In this document: positions 14,426 to 27,535 of the stretch, piece after piece
Position numbering within the stretch: position 1 is the stretch's first letter
Layout of the letters: every line of letters starts with the position of its first letter
Source of the DNA: Paenibacillus sp. FSL R7-0273
GTDB lineage: Bacteria; Bacillota; Bacilli; Paenibacillales; Paenibacillaceae
NCBI RefSeq assembly: GCF_000758625.1
Contig: NZ_CP009283.1
Location: forward strand, 4,227,501-4,291,500
DNA length: 64,000 nucleotides
Direction: 5' to 3'
Program-made: the position numbers and the translations under genes
The notes under the pieces: model-generated
Databases searched by the model: none
What the model was told of the DNA's origin: nothing
What the model saw: the letters and a program-made list of their open reading frames with translations, nothing else

Positions 14426-14467
14426 ATCCCTCCATTACTAAAATTGGCCTTACTCAGCCATTACGAA

Positions 14468-14482
14468 TAAAAACGCTTACAA
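14468..14482 (-). promoter_or_regulatory. cre-like site upstream of the arabinanase gene
   Basis: The minus strand reads TTGTAAGCGTTTTTA, matching WTGNAANCGNWNNCW at 14 of 15 positions. It is about 45 bp upstream of the start codon, consistent with carbon catabolite repression of a polysaccharide-degrading enzyme. A weaker 13/15 match lies at about 14557. Confidence 0.45.
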
Positions 14483-14662
14483 GAGGTATTTTAAAAAAAG
14501 TTTCTGTTTAGTCTTTGTTTTATTTTAAATAATAATAAACAAAAACCCGCAAGAAACTCTGTAACCGCTTTTATTCTATAGCGTACATGCTATATTAGTC
14601 AATTCAAATTTTTAAATAATATGAATCTTTTTATACTTTTATTTATTAATTATAAATTCATG

Positions 14663-14708
14663 AAAAAGAGCAGCGGCCCGCCCGGATAATTGGGAGAAGC
14701 GCTGCTCT
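14663..14708 (-). terminator. Intrinsic terminator of tetR-type gene
   Basis: AGAGCAGCG (14667-14675) pairs with CGCTGCTCT (14700-14708). On the minus strand a T tract follows. It lies just downstream of the TetR gene ending at 14757. Confidence 0.8.
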
Positions 14709-14756
14709 ATTCGTCTGTTTTTTTCTTTTAACCTTTAGCTGAATGTGTACCGCTTC

Positions 14757-15443
14757 TTACTGCTTCGCCTGCTCCTGTATCACCTGCTCGATCCCCAGCA
14801 GAATGATCTTCAGGCCGAACTCAAACGCCTGATCGGTTCCCATCAGCTCGAACAGCCCGGTCGTAAACATCCTCCGGAACAGCCCCGCATCCTTATCAGT
14901 CATTGTGTCCAGCAGCTGAAGCATCTCTTCACCCGGGAGCGCTTCATGATCCTTAATCATAGCGGAGACATTGCGCTCGTGCTGATAGCTGTCCAGAACG
15001 AAAAAGAACACATAGTTCATCATCGTGGTAGCTGCCTGCATTTTTTGCTCAGGCTCAAGCGGCGTCTCTTCGACGCAGAGCAGCATCCGGTTGGTGAACC
15101 GGATCAGATCCGGCTCATGCGGCAGTGTCATCATCATCAGCTGGGTGGAGCAGGGATACCGGCTAAGCACGCTGCGTACCGTTACGGCGAGTCCCGCCAG
15201 CTGCCCTTTCCAATCCCCTTCAGAGCGGTATTCCCCCAAAATGATTTTGGAAATCTGATTGGCCAGGCTTTGGTACAGATTCTGTTTGCTCTTGAAGTAC
15301 CAGTACAGGGAGGGTGCCTGAATTCCCACTCTGTCCGCCAACCGTCTCATGCTGAATTTTTCGATGCCATCTTCTCCAAGAAGCTCCCATGACGCTTCCA
15401 AAATCCGGTCCTCGGAAATCTGAGGCTGCTGCTTTTTCATCAT
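14757..15443 (-). CDS. TetR-family repressor of the divergent MATE pump
   Basis: 228 residues. The N-terminal helix-turn-helix (about 10-55) contains ILEASWELLGEDGIEKFSMRRLADRVGI and SLYWYFKSKQ, resembling TetR-class regulators with a large ligand-binding C-terminal domain. It is divergent from a MATE efflux gene, and the intergenic region holds three copies of one 13-bp motif, so it very likely represses the pump and itself until a drug-like ligand binds. Two adjacent ATGs (15443, 15440) follow GGGCGG; which is used is uncertain. The ligand is not predictable. Confidence 0.88.
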   Translation of the reverse strand: MMKKQQPQISEDRILEASWELLGEDGIEKFSMRRLADRVGIQAPSLYWYFKSKQNLYQSLANQISKIILGEYRSEGDWKGQLAGLAVTVRSVLSRYPCSTQLMMMTLPHEPDLIRFTNRMLLCVEETPLEPEQKMQAATTMMNYVFFFVLDSYQHERNVSAMIKDHEALPGEEMLQLLDTMTDKDAGLFRRMFTTGLFELMGTDQAFEFGLKIILLGIEQVIQEQAKQ

Positions 15444-15458
15444 TATCCGCCCTTTTAT

Positions 15459-15540
15459 CTAACAGTGTAAGTTTATGCTTTACAAGTCCATAAGCCCATG
15501 ATATCATCTAACACTGTAAGGTTCAATCTAACACTGTTAG
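15459..15540. promoter_or_regulatory. Three TetR-type operator copies
   Basis: CTAACAGTGTAAG (15459-15471), CTAACACTGTAAG (15508-15520) and the perfect palindrome CTAACACTGTTAG (15528-15540) lie between tetR and the MATE gene. Two copies are near the pump start and one near the regulator start, a layout that suits repression of both genes. Confidence 0.75.
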
Positions 15541-15572
15541 GCAAAAATCAAAACAAGAAGGTAGTGATCCAA

Positions 15573-16925
15573 ATGGATGCTGAAAACCTCCATTATTTCG
15601 AGAAAGCCCCTGTCGCAAAAGCCGTGGCCCATTTCGCCGTACCCATGATGCTGGGTATGTCGATGAGTGTCATCTACTCCATCCTGAATGCTTATTTTAT
15701 CGGAACACTCCACAATACTGCGATGTTAACTGCACTTGCACTAACCCTGCCGCTGTTCGCTATCCTTATGGCGCTGGGGAACTTTATCGGCATGGGCAGC
15801 GGTACCTTCATCTCGCGTCTGCTGGGTGAGAAAAAATACAATGACGTAAAGCATGTGTCCTCATTCGCTTTTTACAGCAGCCTGGCACTCGGCCTTATCG
15901 TCATTGCCGCCGGTCTCCCGTTCATCCATTCCATTGTCCATAGCCTGGGGGCAACGCCAGAATCCTTCGGCTTCACCAAGGACTATGTCACCGTTATGCT
16001 GATCGGTTCACCCTTCCTCGTATTATGCTTCACACTGGAAAACATTGTGCGCTCAGAAGGCGCAGCCGTTAAGTCCATGGTTGGCATGATTCTCAGCGTT
16101 GCTGTTAATATTATTCTCGATGCGCTGGTTATCTTTGTATTCCATTGGGATGTGATCGGCGTTGCATCAGCGACAGTGATCTCCAACCTCGTGGCGAGTA
16201 TATATTACGCTTACCATATGAGATTCAAGAGCCCTTTTTTAACAGTCTCGATACGGTGGTTTAAGGCTTCCAGAGAAATTGTCAGCAATGTTATTAAAAT
16301 CGGCGTTCCCGTCTTCATTATGAGTGTCTTCATGGGGGCAATGTCGCTTATTCTCAACCATTATCTTGTGGAATATGGCGATGCTGCCGTAGCCGCTTAC
16401 GGCATTTCATCCCGTCTGCTGCAATTTCCGGAGTTTATTATTATGGGGTTATGTGAGGGAGTTGTGCCGCTTATCGCTTTTTCTTTTACGGCCAACAGAT
16501 TGCGGATGAAGCAGACCATCGGATTCACAGTCAAAAGCATTGTCATGCTCGCAGTCGCCTTCGGCCTTATCGTCTATCTGATCTCCGGCCATTTAATCGG
16601 CTTGTTCACTAATGACCCGCAGTTAATTGAGATGGGCAGCTACATTCTCCACGTGACCTTCCTGTCCCTGTTCATTTCTGGCACGACAGCGTTGTTCACG
16701 GGGATCTTCCAGGCAACAGCGCAAGGGACTGCCGCATTTATTATGTCAATTATCCAAGGCGCTACGCTCATTCCCGTGCTCTACATCGCCAACCGGATGA
16801 ATGGCTTTCACGGCGTGGTCTGGTCACTTGTTATTGCAGATGCTGCCGCGTTCCTTGTCGGAGCCGGGATGCTGTATATTCTGCGGAATAAATTGCAGCC
16901 GGATCTGGAGAGCCTGGCACAGTGA
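15573..16925 (+). CDS. MATE-family multidrug efflux transporter
   Basis: 450 residues with about twelve hydrophobic helices in two related halves (PMMLGMSMSVIYSILNAYFIG near the start, VPVFIMSVFMGAMSLILNHYLV in the second half), as in MATE antiporters that export cationic drugs using H+ or Na+ gradients. The start at 15573 is chosen because it follows AGAAGGTAGTG at good spacing; an upstream in-frame start would run through the operator repeats. It is divergent from a TetR repressor. A bidirectional terminator follows. Substrates are unknown. Confidence 0.9.
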   Translation: MDAENLHYFEKAPVAKAVAHFAVPMMLGMSMSVIYSILNAYFIGTLHNTAMLTALALTLPLFAILMALGNFIGMGSGTFISRLLGEKKYNDVKHVSSFAFYSSLALGLIVIAAGLPFIHSIVHSLGATPESFGFTKDYVTVMLIGSPFLVLCFTLENIVRSEGAAVKSMVGMILSVAVNIILDALVIFVFHWDVIGVASATVISNLVASIYYAYHMRFKSPFLTVSIRWFKASREIVSNVIKIGVPVFIMSVFMGAMSLILNHYLVEYGDAAVAAYGISSRLLQFPEFIIMGLCEGVVPLIAFSFTANRLRMKQTIGFTVKSIVMLAVAFGLIVYLISGHLIGLFTNDPQLIEMGSYILHVTFLSLFISGTTALFTGIFQATAQGTAAFIMSIIQGATLIPVLYIANRMNGFHGVVWSLVIADAAAFLVGAGMLYILRNKLQPDLESLAQ

Positions 16926-16944
16926 GGGATGCTTGTTCAGGTAA

Positions 16945-16989
16945 AAAAAAGCCCGCTTCAGCCAGATGCTTGGCGAATACGGGCTTTCT
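16945..16989. terminator. Bidirectional intrinsic terminator
   Basis: AAAGCCCG pairs with CGGGCTTT, with inner GCCA/TGGC pairing, flanked by A8 and a T-rich tract. It separates the convergent MATE and GNAT genes. Confidence 0.85.
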
Positions 16990-16993
16990 CTTT

Positions 16994-17413
16994 TCAAATG
17001 GTAAGGTCGAGCTTCCTGGTAAGCAGAATTTCGAGCGGCTGCGAATCAAGGATCAGACAGCCTGCATCTGTATAGCCTAATTTTCTGTAAAAATGCTGGG
17101 CTCCTTCGTCCGCCTGGGTAGAGGTCATCACCATGTTGAAGCCCTTTTGCTTCATCTGTTCCTCCCAGAACCGGACAACCTTCGCCCCTGTCCCCTGGCC
17201 CCGAAACGGCTCATCGATCCAAAGCAGGTTCATGAACGGGATGTTGTCCCAAAAGTAGCCATACCTCATCCAGCCGATGTTACTCCCATCCTCGTGCCGC
17301 AGGATATAGATTTCATTTCCGTTCATTTTAGCCGGTATCAGGTCTGCGGGGATATGCCGGTCACGGTCTCTTATGTATTCATAGTCAGCTTCTGTTGCGA
17401 AAGCGATGTGCAT
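16994..17413 (-). CDS. GNAT-family N-acetyltransferase
   Basis: 139 residues, a complete single GNAT domain. The acetyl-CoA-binding loop is visible as EPFRGQGTGAKVVRFWEE (about 67-84), and QHFYRKLGYTD is the typical C-terminal part. GNAT enzymes transfer acetyl groups from acetyl-CoA to amines; the acceptor cannot be read from the sequence. The ATG follows AAAAGGGGC. It is convergent with the MATE gene. Confidence 0.85.
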   Translation of the reverse strand: MHIAFATEADYEYIRDRDRHIPADLIPAKMNGNEIYILRHEDGSNIGWMRYGYFWDNIPFMNLLWIDEPFRGQGTGAKVVRFWEEQMKQKGFNMVMTSTQADEGAQHFYRKLGYTDAGCLILDSQPLEILLTRKLDLTI

Positions 17414-17509
17414 TATTTTGCCCCTTTTATTTAGTTATAAGTTCCATATAGTTAGACTAGGATTACCAAAATTTGTTGCGGAGCTCTTAACCTGAGGGTC
17501 GATATAGCG

Positions 17510-18283
17510 TTAGCCAAAGGAAGTTCTGGAAGCAGCCATTGCATTTAAGGCGTTCTCAAAATAGCTATATACTTCATCTGCAATTCCCAGAAACTCTTCA
17601 ACAGGTACATTACTATCCAAGTAACAAGCATACAGATAATCAACTAAAGCGGAGTCAATCTCACAATAGTTTAATATGGCATTCTTCATCTCAATAATGT
17701 CATCTTGCCATACACCTGTACCTGTATCTTCTAGAACCAAAGAGTATAATGCACGAATTAATCTTTTAGAGTAACCTTTAATATATCTGATTTCCATTGT
17801 GTTATCACTGGCATTAGAAAGTAAACTATGTATACGATCTACTTCCTCCTTAGTCTCTATATTTAAGTCTAAAATGAACGCTGGAGAAATCATTATCGGT
17901 GGTACTTTTTCACCAACGTCCTGACCATATATGCAAACACAAATGATCTTTATCCAAAAACCCCACTCATTCGGTTTACTTAATACATCGTCAATCGGGC
18001 AAACTATCGTATCAATCTTAGTTACTACCGGATATTCTTCCAATAGTCTGTTTTTAATATTTGACAATCTTTCGTAATCAATATCTTTGGGATTTGCACA
18101 TACAATAGTAAAGTCTGCATCTGACTTAAAAGGTTTAGCAGTTCCTTTTGGAATTGAGCCACACATATAAATGCTATGAATCTTACCTTCAAATTCAGTA
18201 AGTATATTATCTATATACTTATCAACAAAATCCTTATATTCACTTTGTATTACAACTCTATTTATAACCTTTTCTAATATCAT
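17510..18283 (-). CDS. Nucleotidyltransferase-domain protein, resistance-enzyme-like
   Basis: 257 residues from the ATG at 18283, which follows AGGAGG with seven-base spacing. The nucleotidyltransferase motif CGSIPKGTAKPFKSDADF (about 42-59) has the GS-x-SDxD pattern that binds metal and NTP, as in aminoglycoside nucleotidyltransferases and related minimal enzymes. The C-terminal half is helical. It is AT-rich relative to the flanking core genes, like the next three genes, suggesting acquisition. An antibiotic-modifying role is possible but not demonstrated. The stop codon TAA is embedded in GGCTAACG, reminiscent of the repeat found after the neighbouring genes. Confidence 0.75.
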   Translation of the reverse strand: MILEKVINRVVIQSEYKDFVDKYIDNILTEFEGKIHSIYMCGSIPKGTAKPFKSDADFTIVCANPKDIDYERLSNIKNRLLEEYPVVTKIDTIVCPIDDVLSKPNEWGFWIKIICVCIYGQDVGEKVPPIMISPAFILDLNIETKEEVDRIHSLLSNASDNTMEIRYIKGYSKRLIRALYSLVLEDTGTGVWQDDIIEMKNAILNYCEIDSALVDYLYACYLDSNVPVEEFLGIADEVYSYFENALNAMAASRTSFG

Positions 18284-18423
18284 ATAGACTCCTCCTAAGA
18301 ACTTCTTCGTTCGTACTGTGCGATCCCCCATGTTTATATTAAACTAATTTTATACTTTTATGGTAATTTTATTTGAAAGGGTTGAATAAGCACACTTTCT
18401 TTTATTAGACAATATCTTCGTGC

Positions 18424-18479
18424 TGTGCAGCAATCACTATGACCCTCGATGAAAAAAGGTGTATTAAGCTAACGGGCAG
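18424..18479 (+). repeat. Cassette-type repeat, copy A
   Basis: A 47-bp segment (about 18424-18470) is repeated imperfectly at 19745-19792. It ends in TTAAGCTAACGGGCAG (18464-18479), which recurs exactly at 18971-18986. The following AGTTGAAATA resembles the right half of the later copies. Confidence 0.7.
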
Positions 18480-18570
18480 AATAGTTGAAATATATGGTAA
18501 TATTACATTGAGAATAAGTTGCCTAGGTAACAAGGGTGTCATCTTTTAAATAAATGAGAGGAGTAGGGTT

Positions 18571-18954
18571 ATGGTTAGTAAAGAAATAAGGGACATAATT
18601 GAAAATTATCTTGAAGCATACAATTCATTTGAAACTGAAAGAATGGTTGAACTCTTAGATAGTGACATAAAATTCAGGAATATTTCCAATGGAGAAACTA
18701 CAACGGAGACCAGAGGAATACAAGCATTTAGGGAATTGGCAGAACAGTCGTCAACGATGTTCTCTAGTCGTCGCCAGACAATTACCGATTACAGTGTTAT
18801 AAATGACAAAGTAGAGGTCGGAATCGATTATGAAGGTATTCTTGCCGTGGATTTTCCTAATGGATTAAAGAGTGGAGATAAGTTGCAATTAAAAGGCAAG
18901 ACAACATTCAAGATTAATGAAGGGAAAATATCGTTGATTGAAGATTATAGTTGA
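18571..18954 (+). CDS. SnoaL/NTF2-like small protein
   Basis: 127 residues matching the nuclear-transport-factor-2-like fold: N-terminal helices (EIRDIIENYLEAYNSFETERM), then strands with FRNISNGE, the helix RGIQAFRELAEQ and a final KGKTTFKINEGKISLIEDYS. These are small dimeric proteins with a ligand cavity, acting as isomerases, hydrolases or binding proteins; no catalytic set is identifiable. A good GAGAGGAG site precedes the ATG. The gene is AT-rich and is bracketed by an exact 16-bp repeat (18464 and 18971), the second copy 17 bp after its stop. Confidence 0.75.
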   Translation: MVSKEIRDIIENYLEAYNSFETERMVELLDSDIKFRNISNGETTTETRGIQAFRELAEQSSTMFSSRRQTITDYSVINDKVEVGIDYEGILAVDFPNGLKSGDKLQLKGKTTFKINEGKISLIEDYS

Positions 18955-18970
18955 GTACACCACACGTTTT

Positions 18971-18998
18971 TTAAGCTAACGGGCAGGTTCGCTTAATG
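18971..18998 (+). repeat. Cassette-type repeat, copy C
   Basis: TTAAGCTAACGGGCAG is identical to 18464-18479. Its outer TTAAGC pairs with GCTTAA at about 18991-18996, making an imperfect palindrome 17 bp after the NTF2-like gene. Confidence 0.7.
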
Positions 18999-19072
18999 AA
19001 TACAGAGATTAATCTTCCTCATAGCAAAAATTAAGTAAGTCGTTAGTAAATTGTTAAAGCGAGGAAAAGATT

Positions 19073-19588
19073 ATGTTAAAAACCGATGAATTAATCATTC
19101 GAAGAATGAATGAAACAGATTATGAACAATTAACATCGTGGCTTAATAATAAGGATGTTATTGAATTTTATGGTAATTCAAATGACCCATTTGATTTAGC
19201 TCGAGTCATTGAAAAATATGAACCTAGAGTTAAGGGACTTCATATGGTAAAGCCATGTATTGTGCAGTATGAAGAAACTCCAATTGGATTTATGCAATTT
19301 TATGAATTGAATCCATCGAAATTAAAAGAATACGGATACAACACTAATGAACATGTATTTGGGATGGATCAATTCATTGGAGAATCCAATTTTCTTGGTA
19401 AAGGTATAGGAACAAAAATGGTTAAATCTTTAACCGAGTATATACAAAAGAAATTAAATGGTTCCATAATTGTTATGGACCCACACATCTTAAATACTAG
19501 AGCAATAAGTTGTTATGAGAAGTGTAGTTTTGTGAAAAAGAAGGTTATTTCAGGGGAATTTTGGTTAATGGAATGCAAGAAAAAGTAA
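19073..19588 (+). CDS. AAC(6')-like GNAT acetyltransferase
   Basis: 171 residues. The pattern MDQFIGE, LGKGIGTKMVKSL, VMDPHILNTRAISCYEKCSF is characteristic of the AAC(6') aminoglycoside acetyltransferase branch of GNAT enzymes, which acetylate the 6'-amine of aminoglycosides. Many chromosomal relatives have unknown or weak activity, so resistance cannot be claimed. The ATG follows GCGAGGAAA. The gene is strongly AT-rich. A palindromic repeat begins 6-11 bp after the stop, matching the layout of its two neighbours. Confidence 0.75.
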   Translation: MLKTDELIIRRMNETDYEQLTSWLNNKDVIEFYGNSNDPFDLARVIEKYEPRVKGLHMVKPCIVQYEETPIGFMQFYELNPSKLKEYGYNTNEHVFGMDQFIGESNFLGKGIGTKMVKSLTEYIQKKLNGSIIVMDPHILNTRAISCYEKCSFVKKKVISGEFWLMECKKK

Positions 19589-19594
19589 GTTGTT

Positions 19595-19629
19595 TATTTA
19601 ACTAACGAGAAAAGTTAGTTAAATAACAC
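19595..19629 (+). repeat. Cassette-type palindrome, copy D
   Basis: TATTTAACTAAC (19595-19606) and GTTAGTTAAATA (19614-19625) are perfect 12-bp inverted arms with a 7-nt loop. The right part GTTAGTTAAATAACAC recurs with one mismatch at 20497-20512. No T tract follows, so it is not a typical terminator. Confidence 0.7.
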
Positions 19630-19954
19630 AGCAATAGCCTATGTCTTTGTTTCTCCTTCTGAGCTGCCGCGATAGGCTGAGTTTTCTCCCCGTACTTTCC
19701 CTCCCTTAATGCGCAGTATGCGTCTACTGCTGTTATTTCCGTACTGCGTAACAGTCACTATGAATCTTGATGAGAAAAGAGATCATTAAGCTCCCATGGA
19801 AGAACGTACTTAATTCCATAATTTATGGTGCGGCGCTAGTGCTACATGTATGGATAATAGGCAGTAAAGTTTAACTATAATAGTACTTTCCTAATCTTGA
19901 GGATGAAATTGAAGTAATATTATTTATATCAAAAATCAAAGGATGGGATTTTTA
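19626..19954. other. Gene-free stretch inside the cassette region
   Basis: About 330 bp without a supported gene. It contains distant inverted arms AGCCTAT and ATAGGCT (about 19636 and 19670) and the second copy of the 47-bp repeat. A long 5' non-coding part precedes the YhbS-like gene; no clear promoter was recognised. Confidence 0.5.
19745..19792 (+). repeat. Cassette-type repeat, copy B (partial)
   Basis: Aligns with 18424-18470, sharing TCACTATGA, a GATGA-AAAAG block and ATTAAGCT, with one gap and scattered mismatches. It then diverges, lacking the AACGGGCAG end. Confidence 0.6.
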
Positions 19955-20473
19955 TTGATAATAAGGTCAGAACAATTAAGTGATTATGGTGAAGTATTTA
20001 AATTGAATTATTTGGCTTTTGGAAATAGGGAAGATGAATCTAAATTAATTGAAAGCATTAGATTATCTGAGGGTTTTATCCCTGAATTATCACTTGTAGC
20101 GGAAGAAAATGAACAAATAGTAGGTCATGCTTTATTTAGCAAAGCTGAAATTGTTGATGAAGAAAATTGTCATGAGGTTATTGTTCTTGCCCCTCTTGCA
20201 GTATTGCCAAGCAATCAAAAAAGAGGGATTGGTGGTAAACTGATTCAAGAAGGCTTAAAAAGATGTGTAGAACTAGGTTATACATTTGTATTTTTAATAG
20301 GACATCCGACTTATTATCCGAAATTTGGATTTAAGCAAGCGAGAAACTATGGATTTGAACTAAAGCAATTTGACGTGTCTGATGACGTTTTTATGGTCCT
20401 TGAATTAACTGAAGGAAATATAAAAACAACAATTAAGGGTGAGTTTAGGTTCCAGAGTCATTTCTTTAATTGA
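19955..20473 (+). CDS. YhbS-like GNAT acetyltransferase
   Basis: 172 residues from a TTG at 19955, giving the usual start (M)IIRSEQLSDYGEV; the in-frame ATG at 19943 directly abuts AAAGG and is a poorer choice. Conserved parts are LAPLAVLPSNQKRGIGGKLIQEGL (acetyl-CoA loop) and FLIGHPTYYPKFGF, typical of YhbS-type N-acetyltransferases of unknown acceptor. The gene is AT-rich. A repeat (20497-20512) follows 24 bp after the stop and a strong terminator lies at 20541-20573, so it ends the cassette-like series. Confidence 0.78.
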   Translation: MIIRSEQLSDYGEVFKLNYLAFGNREDESKLIESIRLSEGFIPELSLVAEENEQIVGHALFSKAEIVDEENCHEVIVLAPLAVLPSNQKRGIGGKLIQEGLKRCVELGYTFVFLIGHPTYYPKFGFKQARNYGFELKQFDVSDDVFMVLELTEGNIKTTIKGEFRFQSHFFN

Positions 20474-20496
20474 AATTCATTCCGCAAACAGGACAC

Positions 20497-20512
20497 GTTA
20501 GTTCAATAACAC
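20497..20512 (+). repeat. Cassette-type repeat, copy E
   Basis: GTTAGTTCAATAACAC matches 19614-19629 at 15 of 16 positions and lies 24 bp after the YhbS-like gene. It is the last copy in the series. Confidence 0.65.
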
Positions 20513-20540
20513 TGTTCCAGTCTAATGACCCGCTGATCCA

Positions 20541-20573
20541 GTCAACCTATACAGGATAATAGGTTGACTTTTC
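20541..20573 (+). terminator. Intrinsic terminator
   Basis: GTCAACCTAT (20541-20550) pairs perfectly with ATAGGTTGAC (20559-20568), followed by TTTTCT. It terminates transcription from the three-gene AT-rich series. Confidence 0.85.
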
Positions 20574-20609
20574 TCACCTTCCTATCCCCTCCTTGCTGCG
20601 CTGTTGCGC

Positions 20610-20780
20610 CTACCACTCACCAGCAATCTCTTTTAAGATAATCCTGTTGTACTCACCATCAGAGACTGTATATAGTCCTCGTTTGTGATCATCTTGAATT
20701 CCACAAACGTCGAACGAATCGCCAATACAATCTGCATACCAATATGTTTGTTCCGTTACTTTTCTGATGGTAACTCTCAT
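20610..20780 (-). CDS. Small unknown protein, 56 residues, phage-like islet
   Basis: The ATG at 20780 is preceded by AAGGAGTCC at proper spacing; the stop is at 20610. The protein begins MRVTIRKVTEQTYWYADCI and ends RIILKEIAGEW. It is soluble, with a mixed acidic and aromatic composition and two cysteines. The ATG follows directly after the TAA stop of the next small gene upstream, so the two are translationally coupled. I do not recognise the family; compact size and neighbours suggest a phage-derived protein. Confidence 0.6.
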   Translation of the reverse strand: MRVTIRKVTEQTYWYADCIGDSFDVCGIQDDHKRGLYTVSDGEYNRIILKEIAGEW

Positions 20781-20906
20781 TTATTGGACTCCTTCCTCAA
20801 AATCACATTTTGGATTCTGGCACTCTCCCCAACAGGAATCCGGACCTTCGTCCCTGCCCCACTGAGGAACCATGTGCCATCCGCAACCAGGGCATAAGGA
20901 TGTCAC
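20781..20906 (-). CDS. Tiny zinc-ribbon-like protein, 41 residues
   Basis: Starts at a GTG (20906) placed directly after an in-frame TGA, and ends with TAA immediately before the ATG of the following small gene. It has CPGC at residues 5-8, CWGEC at 25-29 and a further cysteine at 34, a plausible zinc ribbon, and ends CDFEEGVQ. Cysteine spacing and tight coupling with the downstream gene argue that it is real, although it is very short. It may be the 3' part of a larger decayed gene. Confidence 0.5.
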   Translation of the reverse strand: MTSLCPGCGWHMVPQWGRDEGPDSCWGECQNPKCDFEEGVQ

Positions 20907-21063
20907 TCACGGCTGCCATCCACCTAATTCCACAAACCTTGCTCTCCCTCTGCCAAGATCGGCTGCGGAAGCTGCTTAACGTCAGCCAGCCCCGGGTCTC
21001 AAAACGTTTCTCGCCAATCACTATCATCGTTGCCCAAGGCTGCTTTATGGTTATAGCCTTCAT
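20907..21063 (-). pseudogene. Decayed ASCH-domain gene, frameshifted
   Basis: The ATG at 21063 has a fine AGGAGGCGG site and begins MKAITIKQPWATMIVIGEK, the typical N-terminus of ASCH-domain proteins (RNA/ligand-binding fold). After RFETRGW at residue 26 the ASCH sequence is lost. Shifted frames then read ADVKQLPQPILAEGEQ and RFVELGGWQP before the TGA at 20907-20909. This looks like a deletion joining two small genes plus a frameshift. Confidence 0.55.
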
Positions 21064-21119
21064 GACTGAACCGCCTCCTAATCATCTTCTAAAACCAAAA
21101 TCGAAGATTTCCTAATGCT

Positions 21120-21287
21120 TCAGCCGCTGTCCTCACCCTGCTGGATGTAAAAGCCACACGTCTGTTCAGAGTAAGCTATAACCCCGTCTGGCCAACTTGG
21201 TAAGCAAACGGCAAGCCTGCGGCGTTGGAGATGTAATGGCCTTTCTGCAGCAATGTCTTTACCGCGGAATATGATCTCTTTGCTCAA
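21120..21287 (-). pseudogene. Frameshifted small phage-like gene
   Basis: From a TTG at 21287 (AAGGAG 11 bp upstream) one frame reads SKEIIFRGKDIA. A second frame continues QKGHYISNAAGLPFAYQV, and the first resumes with DGVIAYSEQTCGFYIQQGE before the stop at 21120. Two compensating single-base shifts would restore one protein of about 55 residues. The family is not identified. Confidence 0.45.
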
Positions 21288-21330
21288 TTGCTTATCAGCT
21301 CCTTTAGGGTGCGCTTAAATCTAGCAAATG

Positions 21331-21336
21331 GTATAA
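21331..21336 (+). promoter_or_regulatory. TATAAT box upstream of tiny membrane ORF
   Basis: TATAAT preceded by TGG, 24 bp before the TTG of the 28-residue ORF. The -35 region is weak, so this is a tentative promoter. Confidence 0.4.
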
Positions 21337-21359
21337 TGCAAAAATTGGGGGTGTAGACT

Positions 21360-21446
21360 TTGGATAGTAGTTATTGGATAGTAATCTTTATACTTTTAGT
21401 TGGGGCCATCTCTCTGGCTCTGGTCAACAACAAGCGCAAAAAATAG
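21360..21446 (+). CDS. Tiny predicted membrane protein, 28 residues
   Basis: TTG start at 21360 after GGGGGTGT at suitable spacing. It encodes one hydrophobic helix (WIVIFILLVGAISLALV) followed by a basic tail NNKRKK, so it would insert once with a cytoplasmic positive end. A TATAAT box lies upstream and a strong terminator starts six bases after the stop, making a complete mini-transcription unit. Function unknown; it resembles small membrane toxins or regulators only in architecture. Confidence 0.5.
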   Translation: MDSSYWIVIFILLVGAISLALVNNKRKK

Positions 21447-21451
21447 TTTTT

Positions 21452-21484
21452 GGGAAGGGGAGGGGCGCTAACCTTCCCCTTTTA
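21452..21484 (+). terminator. Intrinsic terminator of the tiny ORF
   Basis: GGGAAGG (21452-21458) pairs with CCTTCCC (21472-21478), followed by CTTTTA. Confidence 0.75.
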
Positions 21485-21705
21485 CAATTCAGATATTGGT
21501 GATGGCCGGTACCAGCAGGACTCGCAATAACTCCCAGCCTCATCATGCCCGGTGTATATTTCATCCTCACATTCTACACAGCCGAGGTCTTGATCTTCAT
21601 CGGGGAAATCTTCGTCTTCAAAATCCGGCAGTCATCATCGTCATATTCTTCATCCTCGACCATGATTCGGGCATCGGCCCATTCCATGCCGCATCTGCTG
21701 CACAC
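21482..21705 (-). pseudogene. Frameshifted zinc-finger-like acidic protein
   Basis: From a GTG at 21705 (GGAG upstream) the frame reads CSRCGMEWADARIMVEDEE and then runs off frame near 21630. The next frame continues LPDFEDEDFPDEDQDLGCVE and CESCWYRPSPISEL to a TAA at 21482. One missing base in the acidic region would restore a protein of about 75 residues with two CxxC pairs. It is either a pseudogene or, less likely, a frameshifted product. Confidence 0.55.
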
Positions 21706-21866
21706 AATATCTCCGCCGATTTAAGCCCCGCTATGTTAACTGCTGCTCGGAGAAACAAATCCTAGCCTTAGGTCTGGTACAACTCCATTCCATAGACTGT
21801 TTTGAGCCTTCTCTTCACTACGTATAATGAAAGTAATTGAAAAACGTGAGAGGAAGGACAGGGAAA

Positions 21867-22586
21867 ATGAATGATAAAGTGTATAGTAGGCCGATTGGAG
21901 TGCTGGATTCCATACAAGTTCCTCTACAATCACAATCTAAACCACGCAAACGTGGAGGAAGTCCCAAGACCTATCGGAGTATTTTGTATTTCTTAATATC
22001 ATTGCCAATCACGATTGTCTATTTCGTGTTTATGGTGACAGGGCTAGCGTTATCCATTGGATTAACACCAATTTTCATCGGCATTCCCTTGTTTTTTGCA
22101 GTAGCTAAGGGATTAGATTACATCGTAAAATTTGAACAAGAGCTAGTAAGATCATTGCTGGATATTCCTAGATTGACCGAGGAACACAGATCAGATATGC
22201 AGAAGGAGGCAGCAGGCTTCCTTCAACGAATAAAGTTGGGTTTTCATGGTGCGGATTTTGCTCGTAACATTATGGTGATTATGATGCGGTTTGTTTCGAG
22301 TATTGTCTTCTTTTCACTTACGGTAGCGATGGTAGCGACCGCATTAAGTCTGATTACACTACCTGTACTTCATCAGATTTTTCTGCAAACGATGGATTTG
22401 AACATTCTTGAGAATAATGTGTTCGCTTTGTTTAATATCCACTGGACATTACCTCAACAGTACATTTCTTATGTTGTAGCTGGATTGGTCGCTGCCGTGA
22501 TCGCATCTTGGGCGATTCGGTTGCTTATGGATGTACAGCGTAGAATGCTGCTTGTACCTTACGAGGAAGCAGCACAACAGTATTAA
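21867..22586 (+). CDS. Membrane sensor-domain protein
   Basis: 239 residues from the ATG at 21867 (site AGGAAGG). A basic N-terminal segment is followed by four hydrophobic helices: SILYFLISLPITIVYFVFMV, LALSIGLTPIFIGIPLFFAV, a pair around IVFFSLTVAMVATALSLIT, and ISYVVAGLVAAVIASWAI. This is the arrangement of the putative sensor domain often found in or beside two-component kinases. Here it stands alone without a kinase or ABC partner, followed by its own terminator. Role unknown. Confidence 0.7.
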   Translation: MNDKVYSRPIGVLDSIQVPLQSQSKPRKRGGSPKTYRSILYFLISLPITIVYFVFMVTGLALSIGLTPIFIGIPLFFAVAKGLDYIVKFEQELVRSLLDIPRLTEEHRSDMQKEAAGFLQRIKLGFHGADFARNIMVIMMRFVSSIVFFSLTVAMVATALSLITLPVLHQIFLQTMDLNILENNVFALFNIHWTLPQQYISYVVAGLVAAVIASWAIRLLMDVQRRMLLVPYEEAAQQY

Positions 22587-22601
22587 TAGTAATGAAGAGG
22601 G

Positions 22602-22650
22602 TTGTCCCTAAACCATGAAATGGTTATCTGGGACAGCTCATTTTTTTAGT
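22602..22650 (+). terminator. Terminator after sensor-domain gene
   Basis: GTCCC and GGGAC with inner AACCAT/ATGGTT form a hairpin followed by a T7 tract. Confidence 0.75.
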
Positions 22651-22824
22651 GCGCCCATTATGAGTGCTATCTTGCATTAATGTCCCGAATGGGAAGGTAT
22701 TTTCACAGTTTGCCTCAAAGCGACATAAACCTCCACTTAATTTTTTTACTCAAGAGCTCTATAGTTCAACGTATTGAATAATCCGGTGAGTATCTCCAAG
22801 CCCCTGTTCCTTTTCCGAAATCCC

Positions 22825-22995
22825 TTATCCGCTGCAATTCGGAACGGGCAGCGCGACAGGTATTTGAATTAGTGTGATTAGGGTAAGCAGCATGGCTGCG
22901 TACTCTGAACTGTATCCAAAGTTACGGGCGATTGGTGAAATCCAAGCCGTCAAGCTGTAGAAAATGCTGGCCATGAAGCCAAAAACAAGGTGAAT
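22825..22995 (-). pseudogene. Fragment of a CynX/NimT-like MFS transporter
   Basis: The minus frame reads FGFMASIFYSLTAWISP, NFGYSSEYAAMLLTLITLIQ and then a stop, matching the N-terminal half of the second domain of CynX-type transporters. Flanking frames are broken and the rest of the gene is absent. Together with the LysR remnant to its right it marks a deleted divergent regulator-transporter pair. Confidence 0.55.
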
Positions 22996-23143
22996 AGAAT
23001 CGCTCTTTTGTTACCCAGCGGTAATCTGAGAGCCGGAAAATTAACTTTTTCGATTAAGCGCCATCCAGAAGATTCGAGCAATAACGCCCGGAATAGCCCG
23101 GCAGGACAAGGCCAAAGATAGATTATGCTGACTCTGAGTATAG

Positions 23144-23413
23144 ATTTTAGAACTGACTACTGTCATGGAGGTGGGTTCTGCTTCTTCCCTGCTGCAGCTG
23201 GTTTCGGCCGGCATTGGTGCCACCATACAGCCAAGAGAGCTGCTGAAACAACATTCGGGCTGGTCCGATATTGTATCCATTCCGATTGCTGCGCCAGCGC
23301 CTATCCGCCACCTGGAGCTGACATACTATGTGGATCGGTTCATCAGTAAAGCCCAGCAGCAGCTGTCAGAATGGATGATTGACTTTTTTAAAGCCAGATC
23401 TTCTTTGTCGTGA
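23144..23413 (+). pseudogene. C-terminal remnant of a LysR-family regulator
   Basis: About 90 codons remain. EVGSASSLLQLVSAGIGATI and LELTYYVDRFISKAQQQL are the end of a LysR substrate-binding domain. The DNA-binding helix-turn-helix and about 200 residues are missing, and a stop codon lies just upstream in frame, so it cannot act as a regulator. Confidence 0.7.
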
Positions 23414-23468
23414 TGTGGCTAACAACATAAGAGCAGGTCAACTAATCTGCCCTGTAGTTGAACAAAAG

Positions 23469-23500
23469 CAGCCGATCACATTGATCAGCTGCTCTTCTGG
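23469..23500. terminator. Hairpin after LysR remnant
   Basis: AGCAGC-CGATCA pairs with TGATCAGCTGCT, followed by a short T-rich tract. It is probably the original terminator of the LysR gene. Confidence 0.5.
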
Positions 23501-23541
23501 GAGGCATTATTGAGCTAGCGATATTAATGAAGTGAGAGATA

Positions 23542-23997
23542 TTATTTATCAAATTCTCCTCTGCGGGGTGAATAAGGACCCGTGATTTCAATAACATTTC
23601 CATCAGGGTCTGTCAGTTGAAAGTAATAATACGGACTAACGTTATTAATATACTTGATACTGGTCAATTGCTCACTAAGATTCAACTGTTTTATCCGGTC
23701 TCTTTCTTGTTCCAAATTTTCTGTCCAGAGATTCAGTACAAACTTATGTGTATTCTCAGCTTCAACTATTGCAACTAAATTATCAAACTCCTCTATATAC
23801 TTCCCTTTTCTAACCGTTAAATTTGGATTTCTTGCATCAAAATAACCATTCATAATAGATATATTCTTCCCGTCAAACTCAAACTGAGCAAATCGCTCCA
23901 TATTTTGAGAACTTACCGGCATTTCTAATAATTTCTCATAGAAGCTAATGGACTTGTTAAAATCCCTTACTATTAAATAAACAGAACCTAAATGCAT
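23542..23997 (-). CDS. VOC-superfamily (glyoxalase-like) protein
   Basis: 151 residues from the ATG at 23997; the ATG at 24003 overlaps the GGAGGG ribosome site and is rejected. The fold signature HLGSVYLIVRDFNKSISFYE at the start and FQLTDPDGNVIEI near the end are the two halves of a vicinal-oxygen-chelate domain with H2 and the glutamate of VIEI as metal-ligand candidates. Members are glyoxalases, dioxygenases or drug-binding proteins. The substrate is unknown. The gene is AT-rich, in the accessory zone. Confidence 0.8.
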   Translation of the reverse strand: MHLGSVYLIVRDFNKSISFYEKLLEMPVSSQNMERFAQFEFDGKNISIMNGYFDARNPNLTVRKGKYIEEFDNLVAIVEAENTHKFVLNLWTENLEQERDRIKQLNLSEQLTSIKYINNVSPYYYFQLTDPDGNVIEITGPYSPRRGEFDK

Positions 23998-24080
23998 ATA
24001 CATCCCTCCAAAGGGTTGATCTTTAAATGTTAAACATAGTCATATTTCAGGAAAAATATTACATAGAAGGAAATCTGCTT

Positions 24081-25679
24081 TTAAATAGATTTCACGTTTC
24101 CTTTTGCAAGGTACTGTTGCCATTTTAATGCAATATCTATCCGAGATTTGGTGCTTAGCTCTGAATAAAAGCATTGGCCTTCACGAAATTCCGGTACGGG
24201 TTCATAGGCGATGCCGGTTAAACGCTGAAGGGCCTCACATCTGGCACCAAAAGTGGATACCTTCAGCTTCCGGGCATCATTGAGCATGCCATAAATTAGC
24301 GGTTTTATGAAGGACGGATGCTTTATTGTTGAAGCCAGCTTAATTGCACAATACTGAATATTGAGATCTTCATCATTAAAAAGATCGATTACGCGACTGG
24401 TCACACCCTCCCACATATCCTCTCTATTGCGCAGGCAAAACAATGCGGCCATCTTAACATAACTGCTCTGATCATTAAGAGAAAAACGTATTTCCGTATA
24501 TGTAAGATCCGATGCAGCAGCTAATCTACATAGAGCAGCAGCACGAACTTTAGGAGACTGTGCATGCATAATGAGAGCCTTCAATTGGTCTATTGACTCT
24601 GCAGAAATTGCTTCACCGTATGAGGAAAGAATACTTGAAACTATCTTAATATCACTCTGAACTGAGGCTGACTGATCAAATCTCTGGAATTTATCAGCCG
24701 TTGTAAAAGATTTGCCTGGATATTTAGACGCCGCCTGTAAGTCCACCAGCCCGGCTCCTGCTTCAAACCACTCCGCTTTATATTTCGCCGTCTGGATCAT
24801 TGCTGTCTCCACCTGGCTTGCTGTCCACTCCGGATTTGCTTGCCAGATACATGCTGCACAGCCAAGGATAACCGGTGCGGCATAAGAGGTTCCCTCTGTT
24901 CTGGAATAGCCGTCAGGAAGATTATCGAATTGAACAGTGTAGTGATTCTCATACTCTTCAGCGGATTGAAAAGGAGTGGGAAGTACAATGTTTTCAGCTG
25001 GAGCCAGAATCTCAGGGATTCTTTTTCCTTCGAATGTGATCCCATGGCAGCCGTGATAAGAACTAATCTCATCTGTACAATGAGGAACAATCACTCCACC
25101 AACGGATAAAACAGAGGGTGAAGATGCTGGTCCGCTGCATGTCAGCTCCTTCGTATTACCTGAAGCGACAACAATGAGCAGCCCCTCCTTAGCCAGCTGC
25201 TCACAATGAACTTTTATCGGATCTGCCTGCCAAGGCAAGAGCCCTGTATCTATCGTATAGGCAATCGTTAGGACGACCCCGCGAATATTATATTTCCGCC
25301 AATTATTTGACAGCCAGCGCAAAGCCATGACAAATTTCTTTTCTGTCTCCTCCACTGTAGGCAATGGCCCGGTCTCAATTAAGAATAAATCAGCCTCGGG
25401 TGCTGCGCCGGAGAAAAATCCCGAGGATAGTGATCCCGAACCCGCAGCGGCTGCTGACGTCATTAGCCCATGGCAGCTTTTCCACGGCGCTTTGCCCGTT
25501 TGAAATAATAATGGTTTAGTATCGGCCGATACAGCATTCACAAAATATGTATGTCTTCGATCATTAGCCGTTATATCCGGATGAGGCGGAAAGTATCCAT
25601 CAACCACCGCAATAGCGACGCCTTTTCCTGTGAGATGCGCTGGAATACCCAGAAAATTTCTAATTGATGCCCATTCCAT
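24081..25679 (-). CDS. Cytoplasmic-type subtilase with repeat-like C-terminus
   Basis: 532 residues from the ATG at 25679 (GGAG upstream). The S8 peptidase domain (about 1-325) has the complete triad: D27 in AVVDGYFPPHPD, H70 in CHGLMTS, S265 in EGTSYAAP, plus the oxyanion N175 in ASGNTKE. There is no signal peptide or prodomain, so it probably acts inside the cell. The C-terminal third (about 360-500) is helical and repeat-like (SPKVRAAALCRLAAASDL, SSYVKMAALFCLRNRED, DLNIQYCAIKLASTIKH), as in HEAT-type scaffolds. Such repeats may recognise a partner or substrate. It is divergent from a GNAT gene by about 90 bp. Biological role unknown. Confidence 0.8.
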   Translation of the reverse strand: MEWASIRNFLGIPAHLTGKGVAIAVVDGYFPPHPDITANDRRHTYFVNAVSADTKPLLFQTGKAPWKSCHGLMTSAAAAGSGSLSSGFFSGAAPEADLFLIETGPLPTVEETEKKFVMALRWLSNNWRKYNIRGVVLTIAYTIDTGLLPWQADPIKVHCEQLAKEGLLIVVASGNTKELTCSGPASSPSVLSVGGVIVPHCTDEISSYHGCHGITFEGKRIPEILAPAENIVLPTPFQSAEEYENHYTVQFDNLPDGYSRTEGTSYAAPVILGCAACIWQANPEWTASQVETAMIQTAKYKAEWFEAGAGLVDLQAASKYPGKSFTTADKFQRFDQSASVQSDIKIVSSILSSYGEAISAESIDQLKALIMHAQSPKVRAAALCRLAAASDLTYTEIRFSLNDQSSYVKMAALFCLRNREDMWEGVTSRVIDLFNDEDLNIQYCAIKLASTIKHPSFIKPLIYGMLNDARKLKVSTFGARCEALQRLTGIAYEPVPEFREGQCFYSELSTKSRIDIALKWQQYLAKGNVKSI

Positions 25680-25765
25680 AATTTCAACTCCAAACAATGA
25701 GATATACTACTTTCAGCATACTTTCTGATATAATGGCAAGTATTAAAAAATGAAAGGTAGATTAG

Positions 25766-26305
25766 ATGCTTAAAGGTGATAATATTTTTCTTAGACCACT
25801 TATTCTCCCAGATGCTGAGGAACTACTACTTTTGCAAAATAAAAACCGCTCTTTTTTTTCAAATTATTCCACTACCCGTTCTGCTAACTACTGGTCTTTA
25901 GAAGCACAGCAGGCATTAATAGAAAAAAGGGAGCAAAATAAACAAAAAGATATTGAATACTATTTTGGCATCTATGACAATAACGCTCATAAGCTCATTG
26001 GCACCATCAGTTTATTCCAGGTTGTGCGCGGAGATATTCAAAGCGCTTTCATCGGATACTTCTTAGATCAAGAACAAAACGGCAAGGGTTTTGCCACAGA
26101 ATCCGTTAAGTTAATTGTTAATTATGCTTTTAATACTCTCCACTTGCATAGAATTGAAGCCGGAGTAAAGCCGCACAACATTGGTTCTATGAGAGTTCTA
26201 GAAAAAGCTGGTTTTCACAAGGAAGGAATATCCGTAAAAAATGTTAAAATCAATGGGATTTGGGAAGATCATCAGATGTTAGCTATTATTAATCCTAATG
26301 ATTAA
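25766..26305 (+). CDS. RimJ/RimL-type GNAT acetyltransferase
   Basis: 179 residues. Typical parts are LFLRPL-like start (NIFLRPLILPDAEELL), GTISLFQVVRGD, AFIGYFLDQEQNGKGFATES (acetyl-CoA loop) and HRIEAGVKPHNIGSMRVLEKAGF. This subgroup acetylates N-termini of ribosomal proteins or small amines; the substrate is not inferable. The ATG follows GAAAGGTAG. It is divergent from the subtilase gene and convergent with the chromate transporter gene. Confidence 0.85.
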   Translation: MLKGDNIFLRPLILPDAEELLLLQNKNRSFFSNYSTTRSANYWSLEAQQALIEKREQNKQKDIEYYFGIYDNNAHKLIGTISLFQVVRGDIQSAFIGYFLDQEQNGKGFATESVKLIVNYAFNTLHLHRIEAGVKPHNIGSMRVLEKAGFHKEGISVKNVKINGIWEDHQMLAIINPND

Positions 26306-26329
26306 GGGTACTAAATCTAGTCCCTATGT

Positions 26330-27535
26330 CTACAGCCAAGCCATAACAGTCCCTCCCAACGCCCCCGTTAACACAACGATCCAAGGCGGCAGCTTCCAAT
26401 AGACCAGCATACTGAACAATACCGCGGCAAAAGCAAAATCAGCAGGCGCCAGAATGGAGCTTGTCCAAATCGGCTGGTAAAAGGCAGAGATTAATATGCC
26501 TACTACGGCTGCGTTCACGCCCATTAAGGCACCCTTGGCTTTTGGATTCCGGCGCACACTATCCCAAAAAGGCAGGGTTCCCAATACTAACAAAAAGGCC
26601 GGCAGGAAAATAGCCGCTGTCGCAAGCAGCCCCCCGCCCCATCCATTCATTACAGCACCCAGATAGGAGGCAAAGGTAAACAACGGTCCCGGAACAGCTT
26701 GTGTTGCCCCGTATCCTGCGAGAAAGGCCTCTTCGCTCACCCAGCCGGCCGACACAAATTCCCGTTCCAGCAACGGCAGGACAACATGCCCTCCGCCAAA
26801 CACCAGAGCGCCTGAGCGGTAGAAGCTGTCAAACATGGCAATCCAGCGGACCTGCGTCGCTTCTCTTAAGACCGGAAGAAGAAGGAGCAGCCCGAAGAAT
26901 ACTGCCAAGCATACTGCTCCCAAGCTGCGCTTAACCGGAAAACGGACCCTGCTGTCTGAATCAGCCGCTTCTTTGCTGTAGATCAGAAATCCCACCAGTG
27001 CAGATATCATAATCATTCCAACCTGAGTATACACCGTTTGCCATAATAAGGTAATCGCCATTGCCAATAACGCTATCGCTTTTCTTTTTAGATCGGGAGT
27101 CAGCTTCTGGGCCATGCCGATCACCGCGTGGGCTACAACGGCGGCAGCTACTATTTTCAAGCCGTGAATCCAGCCTGCGTTCCCTATATCCAAACCCTGA
27201 AGCATCAAGGCTAACAGCATTAAGACAAAGACAGAAGGCAGCGTAAAGCCGAGAAAGGAGATTATTCCTCCAAGCACACCAGCCCGCATAATCCCCATTC
27301 CAATGCCCACCTGGCTGCTGGCCGGACCCGGCAAAAATTGGCACAAGGCTACTAAGTCAGCATAGCTTTTTTCGTCCATCCATTTTCTTTTGCGGATATA
27401 TTCTTCATGAAAATAACCCAGGTGGGCAATTGGGCCGCCAAAGGAGGTAAACCCCAGCTTCCCGGATACTATTAAAATTTCGAGTAAGGATTTCAATAAA
27501 CCTTGTTCATTCACTGCCGGCTTGTTCACCTTCAT
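26330..27535 (-). CDS. chrA: ChrA-family chromate ion transporter
   Basis: 401 residues, the long two-domain form. The N-half begins with GKLGFTSFGGPIAHLGYFHEEY and contains QFLPGPASSQVGIGMG. The C-half carries the related FDSFYRSGALVFGGGHVVLPLLE and ATQAVPGPLFTFASYLGA. About ten membrane helices. CHR-family transporters export chromate, giving resistance. Long-form proteins without a chromate-linked cluster may have another physiological anion. No regulator is adjacent. Confidence 0.88.
   Translation of the reverse strand: MKVNKPAVNEQGLLKSLLEILIVSGKLGFTSFGGPIAHLGYFHEEYIRKRKWMDEKSYADLVALCQFLPGPASSQVGIGMGIMRAGVLGGIISFLGFTLPSVFVLMLLALMLQGLDIGNAGWIHGLKIVAAAVVAHAVIGMAQKLTPDLKRKAIALLAMAITLLWQTVYTQVGMIMISALVGFLIYSKEAADSDSRVRFPVKRSLGAVCLAVFFGLLLLLPVLREATQVRWIAMFDSFYRSGALVFGGGHVVLPLLEREFVSAGWVSEEAFLAGYGATQAVPGPLFTFASYLGAVMNGWGGGLLATAAIFLPAFLLVLGTLPFWDSVRRNPKAKGALMGVNAAVVGILISAFYQPIWTSSILAPADFAFAAVLFSMLVYWKLPPWIVVLTGALGGTVMAWL

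Follow-up and report, generated by a model that had tools for sequence, protein, structure and literature searches.

What kind of gene array does this locus hold, and how do its genes move? In the 64,000 nucleotides of Paenibacillus DNA analysed here (the window), three AT-rich genes stand in a row, each followed by a related palindromic repeat. A reading made from the letters alone, which we call the sequence-only reading, had proposed that these are mobile cassettes in a Firmicute, belonging to an unknown or undescribed class. Our analyses support this proposal, and the tests that came with it turned out in its favour. The window probably holds a worn gene-cassette array, built of single foreign genes, whose units are delimited by two types of short core (L and R), the units having likely been moved by a dedicated Xer-like recombinase that is encoded between the same cores.

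Cores, spacers and genes of the window

The repeats were found where they had been reported. The 16-mer TTAAGCTAACGGGCAG has identical copies at window positions 18464 and 18971, GTTAGTTnAATAACAC occurs at 19614 and 20497, and related sites lie 3' of the stops at 18954, 19588 and 20473. An exact 16-mer repeat inside 18424-20512 was seen in 7 of 2000 two-base block shuffles. In the 7.29-Mb genome there are three exact and six two-mismatch copies of the 16-mer, and the backwards-read pattern has none. The genes had rightly been called AT-rich, with a GC content of 30-35% against 50.5% for the window, and Pfam agrees on a cargo of two GNAT enzymes and an NTF2-like protein (Acetyltransf_8, Acetyltransf_9 and SnoaL_2). 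The reported 47-bp repeat at 18424 and 19745 needs more qualification: its copies are equal at 30 of 47 positions in an ungapped comparison, while 36-69 nt pieces of the element do recur, with 88-92% identity, in the same genome and in four stretches of other genomes.

By following copies of the 16-mer we recognised the complete form of the site at C1:5.30-5.33 Mb. The full site is about 80 bp long and consists of an L core (CTAAC-GGGAAAC-GATAG, approximately TTAAGCTAACGGGAAACGATAGTTCAATAA), a covarying hairpin (e.g. GCAGCCGATC...GATCGGCTGC) and an R core (CTAAC-GGGCAG-GATAG, approximately TTCAACTAACGGGCAGGATAGTTNAAT); the 16-mer is the left part of the R core. Each core has two arms of about 10 nt around a centre of 6-7 nt, with CTAAC in the left arm and GATAG in the right arm of both L and R. 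Their centres differ, GGGAAAC in L against GGGCAG in R, which is odd if L and R recombine together and counts against our model. The middle stem varies in sequence and keeps its pairing: 130 cells show changes on both sides, compared with 37.4 in shuffles, and the covariation score is 0.278 against 0.036-0.078 for slid versions, in an alignment that was fitted to the structure and is hence biased towards pairing. A search for TAACGGGCAG plus GTTAGTT within 20 nt gave zero matches in the genome, because the 3' arm is mostly GATAGTT.

With these cores the window can be read from left to right. A nucleotidyltransferase gene (PF01909; 17510..18331, minus strand), identified by Pfam and by its relatives, is a truncated copy of a mobile unit. 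On the plus strand, sequence comparison places a second type of spacer, holding the first copy of the 47-bp repeat, at 18376..18463, ahead of the R core at 18464..18486 that contains the first 16-mer copy and forms the left boundary of the SnoaL unit. The SnoaL/NTF2-like gene follows at 18571..18954, with relatives of 93.5% identity in genome G205 (locus L097) and 86% (L134). In G205 the gene is followed by TTTTTTAAGCTAACGGG-AAACGATAG, an L core. The window has the same bases as far as GGG, after which come CAGGTTCGCT, which is of R type, and the next gene. This second 16-mer copy (18969..18993, plus strand), with an L half and an R half joined at GGG, reads as a putative crossover scar.

Further along the plus strand lie the GNAT gene with the Acetyltransf_8 domain (19073..19588), which the sequence-only reading had described as AAC(6')-like, an L core some 12 nt 3' of its stop (19600..19626), the second 47-bp repeat copy with an eroded R core (19745..19800), the Acetyltransf_9 gene (19943..20473) and its L core (20485..20512), which has three mismatches against the typed consensus. 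At 20540..20573 (plus strand), where the hairpin of a site would stand, an inverted repeat followed by T was read directly from the letters, and no R core comes after it. A worn but nearly full-length site had been overlooked at 23433..23532 on the minus strand. It has a worn L core, the hairpin and an R core, scores 51.7 bits with a covariance model built from five sites (R1) and 59.3 bits with one built from 82 sites (R2), and lies about 10 nt 3' of a VOC/glyoxalase gene (23542..24003, minus strand; Pfam). Abutting this site is an 82-aa open reading frame (23165-23413, plus strand) that looks by eye like the end of a LysR-type regulator; the gene may have been cut by an exchange.

Control stretches of equal size from the window each contained no L-type match and between 0 and 3 loose R-type ones, so little weight attaches to the weakest of the single matches. 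Rfam has no match in window positions 14000-26000. The likeness to integron cassettes, one small gene with a site at its 3' end, stands for the layout of the array and needs amending for the site, which in full is two cores around a hairpin. The copies in the window are worn or recombined remnants, not intact cassettes, and its own pieces are probably no longer full substrates.

Arrays and shared units across genomes

Searched with R1, this genome gives 26 matches at E <= 1, among them weak ones and places matched on both strands; the majority fall into three regions, at 5.25-5.33 Mb, at 4.246-4.251 Mb (in the window) and at 3.455-3.463 Mb. A search of other genomes had been suggested from the start; it found a match at E <= 1e-4 in 80 of 100 genomes of the genus. 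With R2, 175 of 296 genomes and 24 of 48 genera of the order match at E <= 1e-5. In a class-wide sample 21 of 299 genomes match, all of them Paenibacillaceae.

A simple scan of 82 stretches chosen around matches found 211 complete sites, against three in reversed sequence. Both orientations occur together in just 2 of the 69 site-bearing stretches (our own count). An open reading frame of at least 60 aa on the same strand ends within 400 nt before the L core at 185 of the 211 sites, in 81 cases at -20 to +29 nt; on the other strand the figure is 120 of 211, with a median of 182 nt. The middle hairpin, with a T run after it, stands just 3' of gene ends and looks like a terminator. A 13.9-kb contig (L089) illustrates the arrangement well, as unrelated genes and sites alternate along much of its length; some of its genes are on the other strand and one stretch has transposase-like fragments. 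An array stretch elsewhere contains an Rfam T-box leader (L078:17312-17516, 93.8 bits, cut-off 93), and a T-box-like sequence below the cut-off lies ahead of a nucleotidyltransferase gene in L166.

The sites also tend to follow replication. Among the matches listed for 20 genomes placed by dnaA, 75 of the 81 sites outside the terminus region are oriented with the leading strand, a count that left out 49 near-terminus sites and used rounded lengths for six genomes. A tie to single-stranded DNA is only suggestive, because genes in such genomes tend to run likewise, and the bias may simply follow gene orientation.

Evidence that genes are exchanged at the sites comes from near-identical genes elsewhere whose boundaries fall at cores, as the cassette proposal had anticipated. 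Units common to different genomes run from an R core to an L core: their first bases follow immediately on CTAACGGGCAG, their last ones are CTAACGGG, and the DNA on either side is unrelated. Examples are L090:301-1521 and L127:1274-2494 (96%), L082:17304-17987 and L086:6498-7181 (96%), and L080:9332-10259 and L089:12518-13449 (91%). Further shared stretches end away from cores, e.g. long matches between G304 and G141 that represent ordinary synteny or repeats. Of 59 other relatives, 18 have the nucleotidyltransferase gene of the window with 90-94% identity, among them two from other families of the order; the long matches to the neighbouring MATE gene have 76-86% identity. Copies from seven other genomes were compared, and five (G246, G006, G039, G058 and G040) are whole R-core-to-L-core units between differing sites. 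The other two have a different leader and no R core at the start, which does not fit our model.

The orthologous locus provides a further comparison, and here too the expected gain or loss was found. Two relatives (G087 and G077) lack the block at 17414..26330, which includes all the cassette-like genes and others: their matches to 14.5-17.4 and 26.3-27.5 kb of the window are 30 and 186 nt apart, where the window has 8.9 kb. Wider stretches around these empty loci (L247 and L248) contain no R2 site at E <= 0.01. The block also carries genes of ordinary GC content and is therefore more than cassettes. Three other relatives (L217-L219) have the MATE gene with other neighbours and are thus uninformative on the block.

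Do genes and sites travel together? For 21 cross-genome pairs with a common gene before the site, the mean site identity is 0.79 (0.77 without two syntenic pairs), and for 18 pairs with a common sequence after the site it is 0.77 (0.75 without two syntenic pairs), compared with 0.72 (sd 0.08) for random site pairs; the pairs are not mutually independent. Genes that are 97.5, 96.2, 95.9 and 94.4% identical precede sites that are 64, 77, 64 and 52% identical, respectively. Some pairs with site identities of 0.90 and 0.93 look co-inherited, contrary to the model. Gene and site thus seem to be largely independent, and from this independence exchange would appear to occur at both cores.

A tyrosine recombinase between the cores

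The sequence-only reading saw no integrase and recommended a search for a distant tyrosine recombinase. There is one in the same genome, an Xer-like protein encoded about 1 Mb from the window, inside the main site cluster (C1:5294539-5295381, minus strand; 88% identical). It belongs to a family that stood out when ten array-bearing genomes were searched with Pfam for tyrosine recombinases: this one family lies inside the arrays of G065, G096 and G035 in four copies, two of them partial. The whole proteins have 280-289 aa and score 116 bits with PF00589 (cut-off 27.1). Tyrosine recombinases are recognised by the residues R-K-H-R-H-Y, and motif comparison places these at R138, K162, H229, R232, H255 and Y264. 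Within the order the family is present in 68 of 296 genomes, spread over 17 of 48 genera, and some hosts have several copies per genome. A total of 328 proteins match at E <= 1e-40. Among the 120 listed, the named ones are called tyrosine recombinase, integrase or XerD and come mostly from Paenibacillus.

The gene is often flanked by cores, at steady distances. In an ungapped scan around 32 copies, for which reversed controls gave 0 and 3, an L core stands no more than 220 nt before the start in 19 copies, and 18 have an R core at most 120 nt beyond the stop. At least one core is present in 26 copies and both in 11; the six copies with neither speak against our model. Where both cores are present, the recombinase gene takes the place of the hairpin. 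Sites occur in 61 of the 68 genomes with the recombinase and in 114 of the 228 without it (Fisher p = 1e-9, not corrected for phylogeny), and the latter group is a point against the model. Within 20 kb around copies we counted 11 sites in G209 and 6 in G068 (E <= 0.01), all on the recombinase strand. About 60 nt before the recombinase start, L198 and most of the loci L184-L204 have an inverted repeat (AAAACCTCTCCTTAGAAGC...GCTTCTAAAGGGGAGGTTTT in L198) that abuts the start codon and covers the likely ribosome-binding site. Some transposon leaders block read-through expression in a similar way, and judging by its position this one may do so too.

Other tyrosine recombinases near some arrays also count against the model. 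These are a family of 356-361 aa in G070, G067 and G047 and a tandem set in L182, which we set aside in favour of the 280-aa family, the one found beside the cores. The tandem genes (L182:3584-7337 in G047 and G067:C19:730917-733482) presumably recall Tn554-type elements.

A second lineage is found on plasmids. Nine plasmid records of other genera have homologues of the recombinase, seven of them about 50% identical. On CP053689.1 the recombinase adjoins eight small genes, all on one strand. Between these genes stand palindromes of the form AACTAAC-TGATGC-GTTAGTT as well as TGGCAG cores, in some cases with a hairpin in the middle. This record (L222) is labelled Arthrobacter citreus (Actinomycetota), the other eight plasmid matches being Bacillales, and its organism label may be wrong. 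L- and R-type cores flank the recombinase in either direction in four of seven plasmid loci; among the remaining three, an R core alone is present in one and an R-like core in another, and the third has no core, which is evidence against the model. The cores of the Bacillaceae plasmids have centres other than those of Paenibacillales (R, e.g. GGGGCAG; L, e.g. GGGTGC or TGATGC). On the Peribacillus simplex plasmid pSHB26 (L220:5873-8840) there are two consecutive tyrosine recombinase genes, the second of which is the homologue, with an R core 30-40 nt after its stop. Across the class, 34 of 398 genomes, belonging to 23 of 145 genera, encode homologues. At 18 chromosomal loci outside the order, a core of exactly this shape is upstream in five and downstream in one, six in all against 0.5 expected from shuffles; most of these loci lack such cores nearby, a weak outcome that is unfavourable to the model.

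Mechanism, alternatives and known systems

The recombination act, the role of the enzyme and the descent of the hairpin sites are all inferred from sequence. The recombinase would bind the arms (CTAAC/GATAG and flanking bases) and swap strands in the GGG centre. An R x R exchange would then move a gene with its following site, an L x L exchange would move it with the preceding site, and an L x R exchange would move a gene alone or a spacer alone. Together these exchanges would shuffle genes and spacers independently, as seen. The 80-bp hairpin sites would be short, recombinase-less versions of the recombinase element, and the hairpin may serve as a terminator, as a folded recombination substrate, or as both. 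We are evenly divided on the larger proposal: a third cassette system that is native to Bacilli and had an origin separate from those of integrons and dif modules, in which an IS-like Xer-type element (L core-recombinase-R core) sheds its recombinase and leaves hairpin sites, and the single genes between them become exchangeable units.

The sites could instead be dispersed terminator-like or MITE-like repeats, with adjacent genes shuffled by ordinary homologous recombination. The hairpin and T run just after gene ends, the conserved pairing, the independent swapping of sites and genes and the many site-bearing genomes without a recombinase would all agree with this, and the sequence-only reading had itself named sites that are always terminators of unrelated genes as a finding against cassettes. 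The terminator-like part of that objection holds, but it fails to explain exchange at the cores. Units end at core centres, including the place where an L half meets an R half at GGG between unrelated flanks; L and R match over only some 10-20 nt, which is short for homologous recombination, and arrays contain a recombinase gene that has the same cores on its flanks. We therefore regard dispersed repeats as unlikely.

A canonical integron, or an attC cluster lacking an integrase (CALIN), would explain the one-orientation single-gene array with a palindromic site per gene, the tyrosine recombinase and the typical GNAT, NUDIX and VOC cargo, and integrons have been reported from some Firmicutes (PMC8618304). 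However, the array recombinase, which alone was scored, reaches 84.1 bits with the IntI model TIGR02249 (cut-off 265), and its alignments to XerD and XerA are better than that to IntI4; moreover, sites often travel apart from their gene and the recombinase lies inside an L-R unit. The IntI score and the partial independence of gene and site led us to reject the canonical form, and this explanation as a whole is extremely improbable. It is also very unlikely, if slightly less far-fetched, that host XerC/XerD act on dif-like cores, as in the dif modules of Acinetobacter, with the array recombinase as a passenger. Cores with a 6-7 nt centre between two arms of about 10 nt, module exchange at the centre and sites in genomes without the recombinase are what such a process would give, yet the L and R cores face the same way with no alternation, a recombinase that falls below the XerC/XerD cut-offs lies beside them, and differing recombinases go with differing core centres.

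Exchange by the dedicated recombinase, which we prefer, likely makes this an undescribed gene-swapping system, which would be integron-like in operation. We found no description of such arrays within open-licence PubMed Central papers, which is not proof of absence. Integrons are the textbook route by which bacteria capture and reshuffle single genes, and the origin of their cassette sites is an open question. If the larger proposal is true, this would be a living example of attC-like cassette sites born from an integrase's own element, and a large mobile-gene pool in Paenibacillus and its kin. Such an origin could be put to the test in a separate Gram-positive system whose recombinase lies inside its own site and whose short sites resemble deletion products of that element. 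The system would also account for many genes of Paenibacillus that are strain-specific and encode acetyltransferases, nucleotidyltransferases, NUDIX or VOC proteins. For experiments it offers a clear handle, consisting of the two core sequences and a single enzyme of about 280 residues.

The boxes of attC sites are RYYYAAC and GTTRRRY. By eye, CTAAC fits these partly, and the 3' arm is mostly GATAG rather than GTTAG in Paenibacillales, with GTTAGTT in CP053689.1. Cassettes of integrons enter at attI, beside the integrase gene; what stands near the recombinase stop here, in 18 of 32 copies, is an R core. Integrons are single-gene arrays in one orientation with a palindromic site per gene, a tyrosine recombinase and adaptive cargo (PMC8618304). 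The arrays described here share the tandem one-orientation layout, mostly of single genes with a site after each, the tyrosine recombinase and the adaptive cargo. Besides the low IntI score, they differ in having two different cores per site, in the placement of the recombinase between an L and an R core, and in that gene and site often part ways (site identity 0.77-0.79 against 0.72 at random).

The best NCBIfam matches of the recombinase are to XerC, XerA and XerD, all below the cut-offs (183.7 of 335, 180.9 of 220 and 180.9 of 330 bits), and its nearest solved relatives by sequence are 4a8e (115 bits), XerD 1a0p (109) and XerA 5hxy (86); it differs from these proteins in being embedded in arrays, with several copies in some hosts. 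REP/BIME palindromes are mobilised by a RAYT/Y1 transposase, and the exchange of whole gene units speaks against this likeness. The dif modules of Acinetobacter plasmids are genes between short two-armed sites (pdif) with a 6-nt-type centre, and they shuffle independently (PMC13141974), just as genes here are bounded by such sites. The arms of a pdif site are those of XerC and XerD, with a 6-bp spacer between them. Neighbouring sites of dif modules are inversely oriented, with C and D alternating, and sit on Rep_3 plasmids of Acinetobacter, whereas the cores here all face one way, have a hairpin between L and R and a dedicated recombinase gene, and form chromosomal arrays. The simplest account is that the system functions like integrons and dif modules and is, by the features tested, a member of neither.
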